Shown here in pieces: positions 1 through 5,343 of a DNA stretch of 5,343 nucleotides (within the stretch, counting starts at the first letter, position 1; every line of letters starts with the position of its first letter). The translations under genes were made by a program, and so were the position numbers. This stretch comes from an uncultured Polaromonas sp. (GTDB taxonomy: Bacteria > Pseudomonadota > Gammaproteobacteria > Burkholderiales > Burkholderiaceae), in the NCBI GenBank assembly GCA_946479075.1, contig CAMLDT010000226.1, positions 1 through 5,343 of the forward strand. Reading direction: 5' to 3'. The notes below the pieces were generated by a model. It was not told where the DNA came from. It did not search any database and was given only the letters and a program-made list of their open reading frames with translations.

Positions 1-395
1 ACGTGGCGGTCGCTGACGCCCAGTTTCGCGGCCAGCGATTCGACGGAAGGCATGCCATCCGGCCAGGCATCGGGTTCGTCCAGAAGGCGTGCCGCCTGGT
101 GCGCAAGAATGTAAGAAGCATCCTGAATCGACCACACCACCGAGTGCGGCGCCAGCTCCGGCCGGCAGCGCAGGCAGGGACGAAAGCCCGCGTCTTCGGC
201 CTGCGCCGCATGGCCAAAGAAGCGGCAGTTCTCGCGCTTGGGCGTTTTTACGCTGCAGACCGGCCGGCAATAAATGCCGGTGGAAGTCACGCCGGTGAAA
301 AAACTGCCGTCGAAACGCGCGTCACGCGTCTTCAGTGCCGGGTAGCAGGCGTCGTCGGCGAGCAGGGCTTTGTCCGTGGTCATGGGCTGAATCAT
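1..395 (-). CDS. Ada/AlkA-type DNA alkylation repair protein, N-terminal part (runs off the window)
   Basis: The visible 131 residues contain an Ada-type zinc-binding methyl-acceptor domain. It has Y-C-R-P-V-C (Cys43, Cys47) and F-R-P-C-L-R-C-R-P-E (Cys74, Cys77), the four-cysteine set that binds zinc; in E. coli Ada the first of these takes up methyl groups from phosphotriesters. From about residue 115 an AraC-type helix-turn-helix begins (S-V-E-S-L-A-A-K-L-G-V-S-D-R-H-V) and is cut by the window edge. The string D-A-R-F-D-G-S-F-F-T-G-V and the linker W-S-I-Q-D-A are, from memory, typical of proteobacterial proteins that fuse this regulator module to an AlkA 3-methyladenine glycosylase. The glycosylase part would lie outside, so a plain Ada or AdaA protein is not excluded. 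The start at 395 is preceded by a weak AGGT; an in-frame ATG at 383 is an alternative. It is divergent from algC. Confidence 0.9.
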   Translation of the reverse strand, partial: MIQPMTTDKALLADDACYPALKTRDARFDGSFFTGVTSTGIYCRPVCSVKTPKRENCRFFGHAAQAEDAGFRPCLRCRPELAPHSVVWSIQDASYILAHQAARLLDEPDAWPDGMPSVESLAAKLGVSDRH

Positions 396-454
396 ACGGC
401 GCGGACCTACATCCGCCAGCCGTTTTCGGACATCTTCCCCGCCCACCCCGCGCC

Positions 455-460
455 TACAAT
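455..460 (+). promoter_or_regulatory. Candidate sigma-70 -10 box for algC
   Basis: TACAAT matches the TATAAT consensus at five of six positions. It lies 38 bases upstream of the algC start codon, which would give a leader of about 30 bases. No good -35 hexamer stands at 16-18 bases spacing (the region around 432-438 reads ATCTTCC), so the call rests on the -10 alone. It could drive algC and, by read-through, waaC and waaA. No matching minus-strand promoter or Ada box (AAAGCGCA) is clear in the same spacer. Confidence 0.4.
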
Positions 461-482
461 TGGTGGGCTCCACAAACCCTTC

Positions 483-490
483 AGGAAGGT
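483..490 (+). promoter_or_regulatory. Ribosome binding site that fixes the algC start
   Basis: AGGAAGGT is a purine-rich Shine-Dalgarno sequence 8 bases before the ATG at 499. It supports that start over an in-frame ATG at 460, which would sit right at the proposed -10 box and would add 13 residues lacking family similarity. Confidence 0.7.
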
Positions 491-498
491 CCCGACCC

Positions 499-1959
499 AT
501 GCAGGTGAACCCCTCGATTTTCAAGGCTTATGACATCCGTGGTGTCGTGCCTTCCACCGTTAACGAGTCCGTGGCCGAAGCGCTGGGCCGTGCCTTCGGC
601 GCTGCTGCGCTGGCGCAAGGCGAAAGCGTGGTCGCCGTGGGCCGCGACGGGCGTCTCAGCGGGCCGGCGCTGAGCGCCGCGCTGATCCGCGGCCTGGTCG
701 CCAGCGGCTGCGATGTGATCGATGTCGGCATGGTCACCACACCCATGCTTTATTTTGCGGCGAGCACGCTGGCTCACTCCGGCATCCAGATCACCGGCAG
801 CCACAACCCCAAGGATTACAACGGTTTCAAGATGGTGCTGGCCGGGCGCGCGATTTATGGCGACGAGATCCAGGGACTGCGCAGCCGCATGGAAGCCGGC
901 GATGCCGGCGCCAAGCCCGCGCGCAGCGGGAAGGTCACCTTGGTCAACGTGCTGGCGCCGTACCGCGACCGCATCGTGTCCGATATCAAGCTGGCACGGC
1001 CCATGAAGGTGGTGATCGACTCCGGCAACGGCATTGCCGGTGCATCGGCACCGGGCATCTTTCGCGCGTTGGGCTGCGAGGTGACCGAGCTGTTCAGCGA
1101 GGTTGATGGCGACTTTCCCAACCACCATCCGGACCCGAGCAAGCCCGAGAACCTGAAGGACCTGATCGCCGCGCTGCAGGCCGGCGATGCCGAGCTGGGC
1201 CTGGCTTTCGACGGTGACGGCGACCGCCTGGGCATCGTCACGCGCGACGGCCAGAACATCTACCCGGATCGCCAGATGATGCTGTTTGCGCGCGACGTGT
1301 TGTCGCGTGTGCCGGGCGGCACCATTGTTTATGACGTGAAATGTTCGCAGCGCCTTGCGCCCGCCATCGAGGCTGCCGGCGGCGTGCCCATGATGTACAA
1401 GACCGGCCACTCGCTGATCAAGGCGAAGATGAAGGAAGTGGACTCTCCGCTGGGCGGCGAAATGAGCGGCCACATCTTTTTCAAGGAGCGCTGGTTCGGT
1501 TTTGACGACGGCACCTACGCCGGCGCGCGCCTGCTGGAAATATTGAGCAAGGTTGCCGACGTCGGCGCGCTGCTCAACGGCCTGCCCACCAGCTTCAGCA
1601 CGCCCGAGCTCAACGTCGCCTGCAAGGAAGGCGAGCCGCACACGGTGGTGCATGCACTGATTGAGCAGGTTGCAGCGGCGGTGCGCAGCGCAGGGCCGCC
1701 CCAAGCAAGCACAGCCCCCCCGGGGGGCAGCGTCATACGCGAAGCGATAAGCGTGGGGGCCCATGTTTCGACGATTGATGGCGTGCGTGTGGACTGGCCG
1801 GACGGCTTTGGTTTGATCCGTGCGTCCAACACCACGCCGGTGCTGGTGCTGCGTTTTGAAGGCCACACCGAAGCCGCGCTCAAGCGTATCGAGACCGACA
1901 TGCTCAAGCTGCTGCGTAGCGTCAAGCCCGACGCCAGCTTCTCTGCGCCGGCGCATTGA
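499..1959 (+). CDS. algC: Phosphomannomutase/phosphoglucomutase (AlgC type) with an in-frame repeat insertion
   Basis: Cytoplasmic alpha-D-phosphohexomutase that interconverts mannose or glucose 6-phosphate and 1-phosphate, feeding GDP-mannose and UDP-glucose type precursors for surface polysaccharide. All four family loops are present: the catalytic phosphoserine in T-G-S-H-N-P (Ser101), the magnesium loop D-G-D-G-D-R (238-243), the sugar loop G-E-M-S-G-H (320-325) and the phosphate-binding loop R-A-S-N-T-T-P (441-447). The N-terminus (F-K-A-Y-D-I-R-G, G-R-D-G-R-L-S-G-P) is closer to Pseudomonas AlgC than to E. coli ManB/CpsG. The protein is 486 residues, against about 460 for the family. 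Much of the excess is a Gly/Pro-rich stretch at about 398-421, inside domain 4, encoded by a palindromic repeat. No catalytic loop is broken, so the protein is probably active. The start is chosen on the ribosome binding site at 483-490. It is followed after 97 bases by waaC in the same direction. The family call is firm; which sugar dominates in vivo cannot be read from sequence. Confidence 0.96.
   Translation: MQVNPSIFKAYDIRGVVPSTVNESVAEALGRAFGAAALAQGESVVAVGRDGRLSGPALSAALIRGLVASGCDVIDVGMVTTPMLYFAASTLAHSGIQITGSHNPKDYNGFKMVLAGRAIYGDEIQGLRSRMEAGDAGAKPARSGKVTLVNVLAPYRDRIVSDIKLARPMKVVIDSGNGIAGASAPGIFRALGCEVTELFSEVDGDFPNHHPDPSKPENLKDLIAALQAGDAELGLAFDGDGDRLGIVTRDGQNIYPDRQMMLFARDVLSRVPGGTIVYDVKCSQRLAPAIEAAGGVPMMYKTGHSLIKAKMKEVDSPLGGEMSGHIFFKERWFGFDDGTYAGARLLEILSKVADVGALLNGLPTSFSTPELNVACKEGEPHTVVHALIEQVAAAVRSAGPPQASTAPPGGSVIREAISVGAHVSTIDGVRVDWPDGFGLIRASNTTPVLVLRFEGHTEAALKRIETDMLKLLRSVKPDASFSAPAH
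1692..1763 (+). repeat. GC-rich palindromic repeat element inserted in frame in algC
   Basis: The outer arms, GGGCCGCCCCAAGC at 1693-1706 and GCGTGGGGGCCC at 1751-1762, are reverse complements apart from a two-base bulge and one mismatch. An inner run of seven C and six G lies at 1715-1727. The unit resembles, from memory, a dispersed intergenic repeat of Comamonadaceae (consensus recalled as GGGCCGCCCCAAGC...CCCCCTCGGGGGG...GCGTGGGGGC). With the estimated boundaries it is about 72 bases, a multiple of three. One other frame carries a TAA (about 1748-1750), so the used frame is one that keeps the gene open. It adds G-P-P-Q-A-S-T-A-P-P-G-G and following residues between the helix H-A-L-I-E-Q-V-A-A-A and the strand S-T-I-D-G-V-R-V-D. 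Exact ends are uncertain by several bases. Confidence 0.75.
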
Positions 1960-1970
1960 GCACGCGAACT

Positions 1971-2017
1971 GTCATCCGGGGCTTGCCCTGGGATCCATGG
2001 GGCAAACTCGCGATGAC
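1971..2017. repeat. Degenerate REP-like inverted repeat between algC and waaC
   Basis: GTCATC at 1971-1976 is the exact reverse complement of GATGAC at 2012-2017. Inside, ATCCGGGG (1974-1981) can pair with CCCTGGGAT (1986-1994) around a CTTG loop with one bulged G. The sequence resembles the widespread proteobacterial repeat recalled as GTCATCCCGG...CCGGGATCCA, in decayed form. It takes up about half of the 97-base spacer. No T tract follows, so it is not a standard terminator; it could stabilise or attenuate the transcript. Confidence 0.55.
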
Positions 2018-2056
2018 GCGGGAATCGATGGCGGGTCCAGCTCGCACAAACAAAGC

Positions 2057-3091
2057 GTGAAAATCCTTCTCGTCAAACTCTCGTCGCTCGGCGACGTGGT
2101 GCACACGCTGCCCGTGGTGCAGGACATTCGGGCCGCGCATCCTGACGCGCAGATCGACTGGGTGGTGGAGAAAGCCTTTGCGCCACTGCTTTTCCCCTTG
2201 CTGGGCGCCGGCCTGCAGCGTGTCATCCCGTGCGAACTGCGGCGCTGGCGCAAATCGCCTTTCAGCGCGGCTACCCGCGGTGCCTGGCGCGCTTTCCGGC
2301 GCGAACTGCAAAGCCAGTCTTACGACGCCGTGATCGATCTGCAGGGACTGACCAAATCCGCGCTGGTGGCCTGGCTCGTGCGGCTGGCGCTCGGCGGCAA
2401 ACGTTATGCCATGGCCAACCGCACCGAGGGTTCGGCTTATGAGGCGCCGACGCGCTGGGTGGCTGATGTGGCCATCCCGCTGGCGCCACACAGCCACGCC
2501 GTGGTGCGAGGGCGCGAACTCTGCGCGCATGCCTTGGGCTACACACTCGCGGGACGCCCGGATTATGGGTTAAATCGGCCTGCAGCCCTTATAGGACGGG
2601 CGCAAGCAGCTCCTGAAACCATAGCATTTGTACACGGCAGTTCGCGTGCCGACAAGCTGTGGCCGATTGAGAACTGGGTCGCGCTGGGCCGGCAACTGAA
2701 TGCGCAGGGCTACCGGATTGCGCTTCCACATGGCAGTGACGCGGAACTGGCCGTGAGCCACGCGATTGCAGACGGTTTGAATGCCAGCGGAGGGTCAGCG
2801 GCCGTGCTGCCAAGGCTGCCGCTGGATGAACTGACGCAGCAACTTGCACGCTGCGCCGGTGTCATCGGGGTGGACAGCGGCCTCAGCCACATCGCCGTGG
2901 CGCTCGACTTGCCGCATGTGCAGATTTACAACTTCGACACCGCTTGGCGCACCGGGCCGCTGCCCGCAACCACGGCCGGCGGGGGCGCGCGCCAGCGCAG
3001 CGTTTTTGCACAGCCTTGCCCGGCGGTGGCGCAGGTCTGGAACGCCTGGTGCCTTTGCCAGCCCGCGCCGGCGTCTGCAGAGGACGCGTGA
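2057..3091 (+). CDS. waaC: Lipopolysaccharide heptosyltransferase I
   Basis: Transfers L-glycero-D-manno-heptose from ADP-heptose to Kdo of the inner core, at the cytoplasmic face of the inner membrane (GT9 family). The N-terminus K-I-L-L-V-K-L-S-S-L-G-D-V-V-H-T-L-P is a family hallmark, with Asp13 at the position of the catalytic Asp of E. coli WaaC. D-L-Q-G-L-T-K-S-A lies at 94-102. The ADP-heptose-binding parts are H-G-S-S-R-A-D-K-L-W-P (193-203, Lys200) and G-V-D-S-G-L-S-H-I-A (271-280). The length of 344 residues is slightly above the usual 320-340. About residues 173-192, between the two Rossmann-like domains, are encoded by a short dispersed repeat. The start is taken as GTG at 2057 because the conserved sequence begins there; no clear Shine-Dalgarno precedes it, and an in-frame ATG at 1997 would add 20 unrelated residues from a decayed repeat. 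The stop overlaps the waaA start by one base. Confidence 0.95.
   Translation: MKILLVKLSSLGDVVHTLPVVQDIRAAHPDAQIDWVVEKAFAPLLFPLLGAGLQRVIPCELRRWRKSPFSAATRGAWRAFRRELQSQSYDAVIDLQGLTKSALVAWLVRLALGGKRYAMANRTEGSAYEAPTRWVADVAIPLAPHSHAVVRGRELCAHALGYTLAGRPDYGLNRPAALIGRAQAAPETIAFVHGSSRADKLWPIENWVALGRQLNAQGYRIALPHGSDAELAVSHAIADGLNASGGSAAVLPRLPLDELTQQLARCAGVIGVDSGLSHIAVALDLPHVQIYNFDTAWRTGPLPATTAGGGARQRSVFAQPCPAVAQVWNAWCLCQPAPASAEDA
2572..2630 (+). repeat. Short dispersed repeat, copy A, in frame within waaC
   Basis: Positions 2585-2611 match 3859-3885 in waaA at 22 of 27 bases without gaps, including the identical 14-mer GGGCGCAAGCAGCT (2598-2611). Both copies start near AAAT and share TAGCA eleven bases beyond the core (2622-2626). 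From memory it resembles an abundant Comamonadaceae repeat containing GCCCTTAT and GCGCAAGCAGCT. Here it encodes A-L-I-G-R-A-Q-A-A in the linker between the two heptosyltransferase domains. The flanking frame is preserved, and another frame has a TAG within TTATAGGAC. Confidence 0.75.
3079..3084 (+). promoter_or_regulatory. Ribosome binding site of waaA inside the end of waaC
   Basis: AGAGGA lies six bases before the ATG at 3091, within the last codons of waaC. With the TGATG stop/start overlap it indicates translational coupling of waaC and waaA and fixes the waaA start; longer in-frame readings from 2944 overlap waaC and are not real. Confidence 0.75.
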
Positions 3092-4392
3092 TGGAAAACT
3101 TCATCCGCAGGCTTTATTCGGTGCTGATGTGGGCGGCCCAGCCTTTCCTGCGCCGCAAGCTGCTGCGCCGCGGCCAGGCCGAGCCGGGTTACCTCGACGC
3201 TGTGGATGAACGTTTCGGTTTTTACACCCAGCCTGCAGAAGCACAGCCGGAGCTGGTCTGGGTGCACGCGGTGTCACTGGGCGAGACCCGCACCGCCGGC
3301 ATCCTGCTGGCTGCGCTGCGCGCGCGCTGGCCCGGTTTGCGCGTGCTGCTGACGCATGGCACAGCCACCGGCCGCGCCGAGGGCGCCAGCCTGCTGCGCG
3401 CAGGTGATGTGCAGGTCTGGCAGCCCTGGGACAGCGAGGCGGCCGTCGCGCGTTTTTTCACGCATTTCAAACCGCGCCTGGGCCTGTTGATGGAGACAGA
3501 AGTCTGGCCCAACACCGTCGCCGGGGCGCAGGCACGCGGCGTGCCGGTGGCGCTGGTCAATGCGCGTCTGTCCGACAAGTCGCTGCAACAGGCGCTGCGC
3601 ATCGCACCCCTGTCGCGGCCGGCGTATGAAGCCTTGGCTGCTGTTTACGCGCAAAGCGACAGCGACGCGCAGCGCCTGCGCGAACTCGGCGCGCGCGTAG
3701 AGGGCGTGTTCGGCAACCTCAAGTTCGACGCCACGCCAGACCCGGCACAGCAGACGCAGGGCCGCGCCTGGCGCCAGGCCCTGGGGCAGCCGGTGCTGAT
3801 GCTGGCCAGTTCGCGTGAAGGTGAAGAGGATGAATTTCTCAAGCAAATAGTGGCTCTGGCCCTTTCCAGCCGGGCGCAAGCAGCTATCAATAACGTAGCA
3901 GGTGCGAACGTCCAGATTCTCATCGTGCCGCGCCACCCGCAGCGCTTTGACGAGGTGCAGGCGCTGGCCGAGCAACACGGCCTCACGGTGTCGCGCCGTT
4001 CGGCATGGCAGGATGCGCCGCAGTCGGCCGATGTCTGGCTCGGTGATTCGCTGGGTGAGATGGCGTTGTATTACGCGATGAGCGATGTGGCGCTGCTGGG
4101 CGGCAGCTTCGCCGAGCTGGGTGGGCAGAACCTGATCGAGGCCGCGGCCGGCGGCTGCCCGGTCATCATGGGGCCGCATACCTTCAACTTTGCCGAGGTG
4201 TCGGAGCTGGCACAAGCCGCCGGCGCTGCGCGCCGCGTGGCCGACATGGACGAAGCCTTGCGCAGCGCCCGTGCCATGCTGGCCCGCCCGTCCGCACAGC
4301 AGGCCGCCGCCGACGCCGGCCTGACCTTCGCCGCGCAGCACCGCGGCGCCGCCGCCAACACCGTGCAGGCGCTGACGCATTTCCTGGCGTGA
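3091..4392 (+). CDS. waaA: 3-deoxy-D-manno-octulosonic acid (Kdo) transferase
   Basis: Inner-membrane-anchored GT30 enzyme that adds Kdo from CMP-Kdo to the lipid A precursor. The first 20 or so residues form a short hydrophobic, then basic anchor (L-Y-S-V-L-M-W-A-A-Q-P-F-L-R-R-K). The N-terminal domain has W-V-H-A-V-S-L-G-E-T-R (Glu65 at the catalytic position) and L-L-M-E-T-E-V-W-P-N (132-141). The C-terminal domain has G-N-L-K-F-D (208-213), A-S-S-R-E-G-E-E (239-246), I-V-P-R-H-P-Q-R-F (278-286) and G-G-S-F-A-E-L-G-G-Q-N-L-I-E-A (337-351), then G-P-H-T-F-N-F. The 433 residues are near the family's 420-430. About residues 252-271, between the S-R-E-G-E-E motif and the I-V-P-R-H-P strand, come from a dispersed repeat. 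Whether it adds one, two or more Kdo units cannot be told. It is translationally coupled to waaC upstream; a repeat-filled spacer follows. Confidence 0.97.
   Translation: MENFIRRLYSVLMWAAQPFLRRKLLRRGQAEPGYLDAVDERFGFYTQPAEAQPELVWVHAVSLGETRTAGILLAALRARWPGLRVLLTHGTATGRAEGASLLRAGDVQVWQPWDSEAAVARFFTHFKPRLGLLMETEVWPNTVAGAQARGVPVALVNARLSDKSLQQALRIAPLSRPAYEALAAVYAQSDSDAQRLRELGARVEGVFGNLKFDATPDPAQQTQGRAWRQALGQPVLMLASSREGEEDEFLKQIVALALSSRAQAAINNVAGANVQILIVPRHPQRFDEVQALAEQHGLTVSRRSAWQDAPQSADVWLGDSLGEMALYYAMSDVALLGGSFAELGGQNLIEAAAGGCPVIMGPHTFNFAEVSELAQAAGAARRVADMDEALRSARAMLARPSAQQAAADAGLTFAAQHRGAAANTVQALTHFLA
3845..3900 (+). repeat. Short dispersed repeat, copy B, in frame within waaA
   Basis: Same family as the copy in waaC: identical GCCCTT (3859-3864) and GGGCGCAAGCAGCT (3872-3885), with TAGCA at 3896-3900 at the same distance from the core. 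It is read in the same strand and the same codon phase as copy A and encodes A-L-S-S-R-A-Q-A-A. It lies in a loop before a conserved strand of the C-terminal domain. An alternative frame reads AAA TAG at its left end, so only certain phases keep the host gene open. Confidence 0.75.
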
Positions 4393-4406
4393 TGACGCAC
4401 CATTCA

Positions 4407-4457
4407 CCGTTCGCCCTGAGCCTGTCGAAGGGCCTGGCCGCGCTCAGCCCGGACAGG
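4407..4457. repeat. Inverted dispersed repeat between waaA and the AlkC gene
   Basis: Arm CCGTTCGCCCTGAGC (4407-4421) pairs with GCTCAGCCCGGACAGG (4442-4457): six perfect pairs, two mismatches, then five pairs including one wobble, and two more past a bulged A. A second, competing hairpin is GCCCT (4413-4417) with AGGGC (4429-4433). The left arm with its continuation TGTCGAAGGGC is, from memory, the very common proteobacterial repeat whose other strand reads CTTCGACAGGCTCAG. No T tract follows either hairpin, so it is not a typical intrinsic terminator, though it may slow or protect the 3' end of the algC-waaC-waaA message. The rest of this spacer up to 4508 holds only a small 5-bp hairpin (CAGGC/GCCTG, 4454-4467). 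Confidence 0.7.
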
Positions 4458-4508
4458 CTTGCGCCTGCAGGGCGGAAATCAGCAAGTTAAACCGAAAAAG
4501 CTTGATCC

Positions 4509-5343
4509 ATGGCTGAGCCCCTCGTCAACCAATACGGCGCCGACGTTCCCAGAGCCATTGCCCGCATGATCAGCGCGGTGCACCCGGCCTTTGATTCGCG
4601 CAAGTTCGTCGCGGACGCACTCAAGGGCTACGACGAGCTGGCCCTGATGCCGCGCGGCAAACACATCGCCCGCGCACTGCACAAGCACCTGCCGCCCGAC
4701 TACTCCAAGGCGGTGGACATCCTGCTGGCCTCGCTGGACCAGCCGCACGGACGCGACCCCGGGCTGACTTTGGGCTCCTTCCTGTTTCTGCCGCACACCA
4801 TGTTCGTCGCGGAGTTCGGGCTCGATCATTTTGAAGATTCGATGCGCGCGCAACACGCGCTGACGCAGCGCTTCACGGCCGAGTTCAGCATCCGCCCCTT
4901 TCTGCAAAATCATGAAGCCGCGACGCTGAAGCGTTTCAAACAATGGGCCAGCGACCCGAGCGAACATGTGCGCCGCCTGGTGTCCGAAGGCAGCCGCCCA
5001 CGCCTGCCCTGGGCCAGCCGCCTGCCGGCTTTCCAGCAAGACCCGGCGCCGGTGCTGGCGCTGCTGGAACTGTTGAAGGACGACCCGGCGCTGTACGTGC
5101 GCCGCTCCGTCGCCAACAACCTCAACGACATCGGCAAGGACCACCCCGACGTGCTGGCAGCCACCGCAAAGACGTGGCTCAAAGGCGCCAGCGACGAGCG
5201 CCGGTGGATCGTGCAGCACGCGCTGCGCTCTGCCGTCAAACGCGGCGAGGCCGGCGCGCTGGCGGTGCTGGGCTTTGGCAAAAGCGCAGAGGCCGCGGTG
5301 AGCGGCGCGCGCATCACGCCCCAACGCGTGGTGATGGGTGACA
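4509..5343 (+). CDS. AlkC-type DNA alkylation repair glycosylase (runs off the window)
   Basis: The reading frame is open from ATG 4509 to the end of the window (278 residues). It is an all-helical HEAT-like repeat protein of the AlkC/AlkD superfamily; members with AlkC-like sequence excise 3-methyladenine from alkylated DNA. Hallmarks are A-L-T-Q-R-F-T-A-E-F-S-I-R-P-F (117-131), D-P-S-E-H-V-R-R-L-V-S-E-G-S-R-P-R-L-P-W (149-168) and the repeat-like V-R-R-S-V-A-N-N-L-N-D-I-G-K-D-H-P (197-213). After the helical part ends at about L-G-F-G (254-257), the last residues I-T-P-Q-R-V-V-M-G-D suggest the start of the C-terminal Ig-like domain known in some AlkC proteins; this is inference, since the window ends there. 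The ribosome binding site is weak (GAAAAAG about 8 bases upstream). The next in-frame ATG (4568) would cut into the conserved N-terminal helix. It has its own spacer after waaA, so whether it shares the waaA transcript is open. Confidence 0.92.
   Translation, partial: MAEPLVNQYGADVPRAIARMISAVHPAFDSRKFVADALKGYDELALMPRGKHIARALHKHLPPDYSKAVDILLASLDQPHGRDPGLTLGSFLFLPHTMFVAEFGLDHFEDSMRAQHALTQRFTAEFSIRPFLQNHEAATLKRFKQWASDPSEHVRRLVSEGSRPRLPWASRLPAFQQDPAPVLALLELLKDDPALYVRRSVANNLNDIGKDHPDVLAATAKTWLKGASDERRWIVQHALRSAVKRGEAGALAVLGFGKSAEAAVSGARITPQRVVMGD

Follow-up and report, generated by a model that had tools for sequence, protein, structure and literature searches.

Why should two consecutive genes of the lipopolysaccharide core carry the same short piece of DNA in the same reading frame? 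The question is raised by a 5,343-nucleotide stretch of an uncultured Polaromonas sp. (GCA_946479075.1, contig CAMLDT010000226.1, positions 1 to 5,343; hereafter the window), which contains waaC for lipopolysaccharide heptosyltransferase I (2057..3091, + strand, GTG start assumed; TIGR02193 295 bits, cut-off 185) and waaA for lipid IV(A) Kdo transferase (3091..4392, + strand; best model NF004386 467 bits, below the cut-off of 524). A sequence-only reading had proposed a mobile or spreading short element that is tolerated as protein, as described for Rickettsia palindromic elements (RPE). Our analysis shows that both belong, as ordinary copies, to an old interspersed family of the Comamonadaceae with a 64-bp unit and a high copy number, and it bears out only part of the proposal that a mobile element is tolerated as protein. 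We slightly favour, with a probability of about 0.55, an old dispersed site that spread early, reached WaaA by insertion and is now kept by a trans-acting process.

In waaC, positions 2585-2611 (GCC CTT ATA GGA CGG GCG CAA GCA GCT) encode A-L-I-G-R-A-Q-A-A, and in waaA positions 3859-3885 (GCC CTT TCC AGC CGG GCG CAA GCA GCT) encode A-L-S-S-R-A-Q-A-A. The two segments are equal at 22 of 27 bases without a gap, both on the + strand, and in equal codon phase (2585-2057 and 3859-3091 are both divisible by 3), which confirms the match first reported. A repeat search lengthened the pair to 42 nt with 71% identity. We then searched with a covariance model built on 44 copies, all of which stem from Comamonadaceae genomes other than the window's; 4 of 48 candidates had been discarded by eye, and one of the 44 is the copy in the WaaA orthologue of P. 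eurypsychrophila (L125:4973-5036; L and G numbers are our labels for sequence records and genomes). It placed a 64-nt copy in waaC at 2564..2627 (+ strand; cmsearch 57.5 bits, E 9e-18), reading Y-G-L-N-R-P-A-A-L-I-G-R-A-Q-A-A-P-E-T-I-A, and one in waaA at 3838..3901 (+ strand; 64.1 bits, E 6e-20), reading L-K-Q-I-V-A-L-A-L-S-S-R-A-Q-A-A-I-N-N-V-A; these E-values are rough owing to a short calibration. Both were the sole matches up to E 1 within the window. The limits proposed earlier, 2572-2630 and 3845-3900, marked the right stretches with an error of a few bases. In the waaC copy, the core (GCGCAAGCAGCT...ATAGCA, 2600..2627, + strand) has two of its five GCTAT/ATAGC hairpin pairs broken, and the core of the waaA copy (GCGCAAGCAGCTATCAATAACGTAGCAG, 3874..3901, + strand) has the hairpin GCTAT/GTAGC. 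It is clear that the similarity of the two copies is far beyond chance.

The family was found in Polaromonas, Rhodoferax, Acidovorax, Diaphorobacter and their kin, and all genome-wide figures given here come from relatives of the window organism. A position matrix detected 407 copies in samples of 13 genomes, with 0 in the reversed-sequence control for all 13. Twelve of these genomes had 12-22 copies per 100 kb, and the 18-kb sample of G014 had 0; known WaaA copies were excluded, and the G018 stretches and the G022 and G012 contigs were picked partly at known matches, where densities may be high. By extrapolation, a genome would hold ~500-800 copies. The covariance model gave 51 copies at E<1e-3 in 396 kb. 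We also ran the core pattern GCGCAAGCAGCTATNAA, with one mismatch at most, on 25 chosen Comamonadaceae genomes: 19 had 14-256 matches, three had 1-4 and three had 0, and the reversed pattern gave 0-1 matches per strand in the same 25. A slightly wider pattern matched at least once in 129 of 250 Comamonadaceae genomes and at least ten times in 53 (hand count). The copy count proposed by the sequence-only reading, run here on relatives, returned hundreds of copies per genome by extrapolation, in and out of genes.

The unit has sharp ends at ~66 bp and featureless flanks (40 and 38 copies of two genomes), and the information per unit, measured in five lineages, is 49-59 bits. In Polaromonas the consensus reads TTTAAGTCAAATCGGCCTCCAGCCCATGTCGAACGGGCGCAAGCAGCTATTAAATTAATAGCAA. 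Its small stem GCTAT/ATAGC was paired in 94% of cells, RNAalifold retained only 3 pairs, and no terminal inverted repeats or target duplications were seen by eye at the unit ends in copies of two genomes. In 40 Polaromonas (G004) copies, unit positions 9-12 read AAAT in 12 and TTTT in 10, with few intermediates; this alternation is not easily explained by single changes. Unit pairs 40-48 bp apart (mostly 44) were observed five times in the G021 sample and once each in those of G019 and G022. They overlap at the GCTAT/ATAGC hairpin and can be read as opposite orientations with a common hairpin.

Copies also occur on other kinds of replicon. A 373-kb replicon of Comamonas odontotermitis with dbpA and dtd has two units (L278:2027-2090 and 2993-3056), so large secondary replicons carry copies too. 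Plasmid pADP-1 of Pseudomonas sp. ADP has a full-length copy (NC_004956.1, ~33.9 kb; L277:5963-6026) that scores 63 bits against the pooled matrix. It is flanked by IS1071 and an amidohydrolase gene (atzA), a finding that suggests that this segment derived from a Comamonadaceae genome. Phage records gave no match to the WaaA unit.

The 315 copies in five large samples were divided into 138 intergenic, 84 overlapping gene ends and 93 intragenic ones, with genes called by a home-made hexamer gene finder. As 85-89% of the DNA in these samples is called coding, intergenic copies are in excess. Copies in frame within protein genes are thus found together with copies outside genes, a trait of RPE. 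When the phases of intragenic copies were compared, as the sequence-only reading had proposed, 67 of 93 fell in two of the six frames, mostly stop-free ones: 35 were sense with GCG as a codon and 32 antisense in one phase, and the other four frames together held 26. The open-frame frequencies of the copies predict 24 for the sense GCG frame and 32 for the antisense frame. Stop avoidance accounts for most of the phase rule, and some excess is left in the frame used in waaC and waaA. Among WaaA loci with a scored copy, the frame was the same in 35 of 36.

Copy counts in G004, G021, and G019 were under-dispersed, with P values of 7e-5 (10-kb bins), 3e-4 (20-kb) and 0.03 (40-kb), and the evenness of spacing was strongest in G021. 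Placement in intergenic slots explains part of this even spacing. Copies lie on both strands. A replication-strand polarity, hinted at early in G240 (47 of 72 exact cores, hand count) and in G004 (33 of 51), was gone in the larger set (169:168). The strand imbalance of 125:8 in waa loci results from the orthology of a few places and is not a general rule.

The WaaA loop from S-R-E-G-E-E to V-P-R-H-P has 32-44 residues in 37 element-bearing rows. In 42 measured element-free rows it has 17-28 residues in 29 and 31-57 in 13; the 11 element-free rows of Ramlibacter, Caenimonas, and Limnohabitans have 17-21 residues in nine, 27 in one and 34 in one. Among the long loops without the element are those of JS666 and CF318 (34 residues), two genomes that branch within element-bearing Polaromonas in a tree whose support is modest at some forks; we take these loops for decayed copies. 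On this tree the presence or absence of the element in WaaA requires at least 10 changes on starred branches. Six residues separate S-R-E-G-E-E from the unit in L049, L051, L053, L057, L060, and L064, and three in the window and its Polaromonas kin; these insertion points, 9 nt apart, reflect either one insertion plus an indel or two insertions. Judged from such comparisons, the WaaA copy probably arrived as an insertion.

In WaaC the linker has 18-27 residues with the unit (two rows of 34 were cut at an earlier G-L/G-V) and 11-37 without it. The left end of the unit overlaps the conserved Y-G-L codons, and the linker in the sequence of the solved WaaC structure 2gt1, which we take to be the E. 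coli protein, is of similar length. The overlap, the overlapping length ranges and the 2gt1 linker make the case for insertion weaker in WaaC than in WaaA. A clean insertion of ~20 residues, as predicted for both proteins, is suggested by the longer loop of WaaA and is doubtful in WaaC. WaaC of L038, L052, L045, L068, and L080, which have no scored unit, show A-P-E-N-I-A or H-E-R-V-A-L-G-like residues at its place that look like remnants of decayed units. The first suggestion was right in that the short element belongs to an interspersed family, which lies inside genes, in frame, and outside them, and that element-free relatives have a shorter WaaA loop. The two outcomes named as refuting it, the same residues in distant families and a genome with no further copies, did not occur.

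Spreading appears to be a matter of the past. Copy pairs within genomes have a mean identity of 0.46-0.60, the nearest neighbour a median of 0.56-0.77 and the best pair 0.84 (12 genomes), and near-identical, young copies were absent from the samples of these 12. Turnover was checked in one 11-kb region of 11 close Polaromonas contigs in both directions (110 ordered pairs). The counterpart was scored in 293 of 309 covered comparisons and missing in 16, and 71 more comparisons were not covered. All 16 missing counterparts trace to site B of L002, site B of L007 and site A of L020, three places in total, and have 0-3 gaps over 64 nt; as they align without unit-sized gaps, these copies were lost by substitution. 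No gain or loss of a unit through insertion or deletion was seen among the 11 contigs in this region. The present mobility implied by the sequence-only reading is not supported by these results. At this locus the four places, of which the Ada/AlkA-type gene holds two and waaC and waaA one each, recur in several genera.

The copies are also constrained. At four places in the window's clade, orthologous copies differ in 0.13 of comparisons at positions that are informative genome-wide and in 0.39 at uninformative ones. With all 12 species of the clade, high- and low-information positions differ by 0.17 and 0.34 in WaaA, and by 0.09 and 0.44 in WaaC. At third codon positions the values are 0.21 and 0.60 in WaaA, 0.21 and 0.45 in WaaC, and 0.33 in the rest of WaaA. 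As all 12 species were included, detection bias cannot explain the contrast in WaaA and WaaC. Over 11 distant rows, identity is 72% in the 28-nt core of the WaaA copy, compared with 55% at fourfold sites elsewhere. The informative positions of the motif are conserved beyond what the reading frame needs, which speaks against an element that is merely tolerated; the motif positions alone are slow, and the whole 64-nt unit is not slower than its flanks. Both units in the window contain rare codons (share of the amino acid's codons in P. eurypsychrophila: TTA 0.9%, GTA 4.7%, ATA 5.6%, GCT 9%).

The motif differs between lineages, with the sub-types GCCC..GGGC in Polaromonas, GCGCTT..AAGCGC in Acidovorax-like genomes and GGCGCCCGTGGAATATGCGC in G240. 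Leave-one-out assignment returned 54 of 61, 54 of 60, 66 of 90, 47 of 55, and 45 of 56 copies to their own genome. WaaA copies tend toward the sub-type of their own genome: 0 of 20,000 permutations were as good in a double-centred table of 11 lineages, and when only the six lineages that share one insertion point are used, the true pairing of WaaA and genome has rank 2 among 720. With at most 150 candidates scored per genome, JS666 and CF318 have 10 and 14 model matches, compared with at least 150 in G004, G012, G013, G018, and G021. Their WaaA loop is of the same length class and has a different sequence. The motif has decayed in this one Polaromonas clade, and its near-absence there is the strongest hint of a trans-acting reader.

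Under the reading that we favour, the family would have been dispersed early and would have entered WaaA through insertion. A DNA-reading, trans-acting process would now retain the copies, and its specificity would drift from lineage to lineage; candidates are a chromosome-organising DNA-binding protein, or a bias in DNA uptake or recombination. Inside genes, mainly copies in stop-free frames would be tolerated, which would give waaC and waaA the same phase, and the peptide would be a by-product within variable loop or linker segments. A bolder form, which we hold only tentatively and below even odds, is a whole-chromosome signal: several hundred evenly spaced 64-bp sites, whose lineage dialects track a co-evolving nucleoid, segregation, recombination or uptake factor, which may stay at fixed places for longer than the age of genera, LPS synthesis genes included, and would decay across the chromosome on loss of this factor, JS666 and CF318 being the examples. 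A site for integration host factor was rejected, as the C of WATCAA is variable (position 51).

Several results weigh against a maintained site. Copies show no leading-strand bias (169 co-oriented with the G-rich strand, 168 opposite), the variation of gap length on its own was not significant in G004, G021, and G019, and the covariation of the stem was no better than in shuffles. At the two places outside waaC and waaA a copy was scored in 7 of 12 species, and detection bias may inflate the contrast there. Across the 11 distant rows the WaaA unit is 63% identical, compared with 68% in the rest of the gene, and the WaaC copies of L002 and L003 agree at 50 of 64 positions inside a block of 91% identity. 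With raw scores, the own genome ranked first for 4 of 11 WaaA copies, second for one and third to fifth for six, several of which have small samples; the permutation includes closely related lineages (L053 with L060, G019 with G022), and this lack of independence weakens the test. Copy number is underestimated by the short core pattern in some lineages (2 matches in G023, where the model gives 94), and the low model counts may be underestimates. Finally, the Y1 transposase (PF01797), with 1-2 matches per genome, and ComEC were both present in 18 of 18 genomes (12 copy-rich, 6 copy-poor), and neither tracks copy number.

The best surviving alternative, which we nevertheless consider doubtful, is a non-autonomous mobile repeat resembling a miniature inverted-repeat transposable element (MITE), a repetitive extragenic palindrome (REP) or an RPE, which was active in ancestors and is mostly dead now; sub-types would have arisen by gene conversion or separate bursts, and insertions in genes would be neutral. 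The WaaA loop, about one unit longer than in element-free relatives, and the small stem GCTAT/ATAGC agree with this view, tolerated insertion suits the intergenic excess and the stop-free intragenic frames, and the two WaaA insertion points of Polaromonas and the six other lineages could be separate insertions. The absence of near-identical copies, of unit-sized gain or loss among the close contigs, and of visible terminal inverted repeats or target duplications argues against it, as do the independence of Y1 transposase from copy number, the constraint on motif positions at orthologous places and the decay throughout one clade.

One version of the trans-acting reading, a signal of the DNA-uptake type as in Neisseriaceae and Pasteurellaceae, is unlikely in our judgement. 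Here, biased uptake and recombination (molecular drive) would accumulate and maintain the motif. High copy number on both strands without replication bias, inside and outside genes, would fit, as would the inverted overlapping pairs, the lineage dialects and the fairly even spacing. Known uptake words have cores of about 9-12 bp, a length that our 64-bp unit of 49-59 bits far exceeds; the probable arrival in WaaA by insertion and the presence of ComEC in rich and poor genomes alike are further objections. In PMC1939737, uptake sequences likewise lie inside open reading frames (65% in H. influenzae, 35% in N. gonorrhoeae) with no orientation bias, which suits the uptake version. Their even spacing, attributed there to Karlin, is disputed in the same text, which does not. 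The literature search, as far as its sources were accessible, returned no paper joining Comamonadaceae and 'DNA uptake sequence'.

That A-L-x-x-R-A-Q-A-A is a protein motif kept for protein reasons, with a secondary DNA match, would explain the constant frame at the WaaA loci; it is refuted by the antisense and intergenic copies, and the lack of the segment in most Ramlibacter, Caenimonas, and Limnohabitans rows and the retained rare codons leave it next to no probability. Chance similarity of two GC-rich codon runs, for which only the short length speaks, is refuted, because a model from other genomes picks the two stretches and nothing else in the window, each at E<1e-17.

Compared with known repeats, the family is like RPE in being dispersed in frame within protein genes and also between genes. 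RPE are 105-146 bp long with long stem-loops and terminal inverted repeats, according to PMC2229807, whereas the Comamonadaceae unit has 64-66 bp, two short stems only and no visible terminal repeats, is conserved in sequence and not in structure, and is old and under constraint at the DNA level. The RPE-like long palindrome is therefore not supported, by the unit ends or by the covariation. The enterobacterial repetitive intergenic consensus (ERIC), or intergenic repeat unit (IRU), is similarly dispersed with some copies fused in frame; it is an element of enterobacteria with 127 bp, terminal inverted repeats and a target duplication (PMC2229807). DNA uptake sequences, uptake signal sequences and DNA uptake enhancing sequences (DUS/USS/DUES) share the high copy number, both strands, placement in genes and intergenic DNA and dialects between groups; the 64-bp unit and its probable arrival at WaaA with an insertion set the family apart. 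REP and bacterial interspersed mosaic elements (BIME), with the REP-associated tyrosine transposase (RAYT), are also short, of high copy, with small stems and mostly outside genes, but no GTAG/GGAG-tagged palindrome was seen by eye in our consensus, and the Y1 transposase is equal in rich and poor genomes. The text of the REP survey PMC3733652 does not mention Polaromonas, Acidovorax, Comamona-, Rhodoferax or Delftia. The beta-proteobacterial repeat element (BRE) is likewise short, with some copies within coding sequences; it measures about 90 bp, is often tandem and reaches its maximum of 29 copies in JS666 (PMC3110155), compared with 64 bp and 10 model matches for our unit, so length and distribution set the two apart. 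From an active MITE the family differs in its best copy pair of 84%, the lack of insertion polymorphism among the 11 contigs in the 11-kb region and the lack of visible target duplications. The 17-base cores had no match in the literature searched by text, and a description of the family was not found there; subscription journals and preprints, which lay outside this partial search, may describe it.

Beside waaC and waaA, the window contains an Ada/AlkA-type gene at its start (− strand), judged by its P. eurypsychrophila counterpart, a phosphoglucomutase/phosphomannomutase gene between this gene and waaC, and a partial gene downstream of waaA at the window end. The closest WaaA in named contigs is that of Polaromonas, with best segments 84-88% identical in the four first-listed relatives. 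At 1690-1765 the phosphomannomutase gene contains an additional segment with many C and G runs (about AGPPQASTAPPGGSVIREAISVGAH), which is absent from the P. eurypsychrophila orthologue; a related pattern matched 15 times in 3.65 Mb of relatives' DNA, and the stretch is possibly another in-frame repeat. Two intergenic segments resemble other dispersed repeats: 4400-4470 (AGCCTGTCGAAGG), whose pattern occurs 6 times in the same 3.65 Mb, and 1966-2020 (CCTGGGATCCATGG), whose exact pattern occurs 0 times. An Rfam scan of the window gave 4 matches up to E 5, every one far under its gathering score.

Interspersed repeats within bacterial genes are usually taken as selfish DNA. The present family offers a natural experiment: a single genus has both copy-rich and copy-poor genomes, orthologous places are fixed and lineages have dialects, so a trans-acting reader can be sought by comparing JS666 and CF318 with their copy-rich sisters. 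The family would account for variable inserts in conserved proteins, WaaA among them, and Comamonadaceae-derived DNA elsewhere may be recognisable by the unit, for example beside the amidohydrolase gene of pADP-1.

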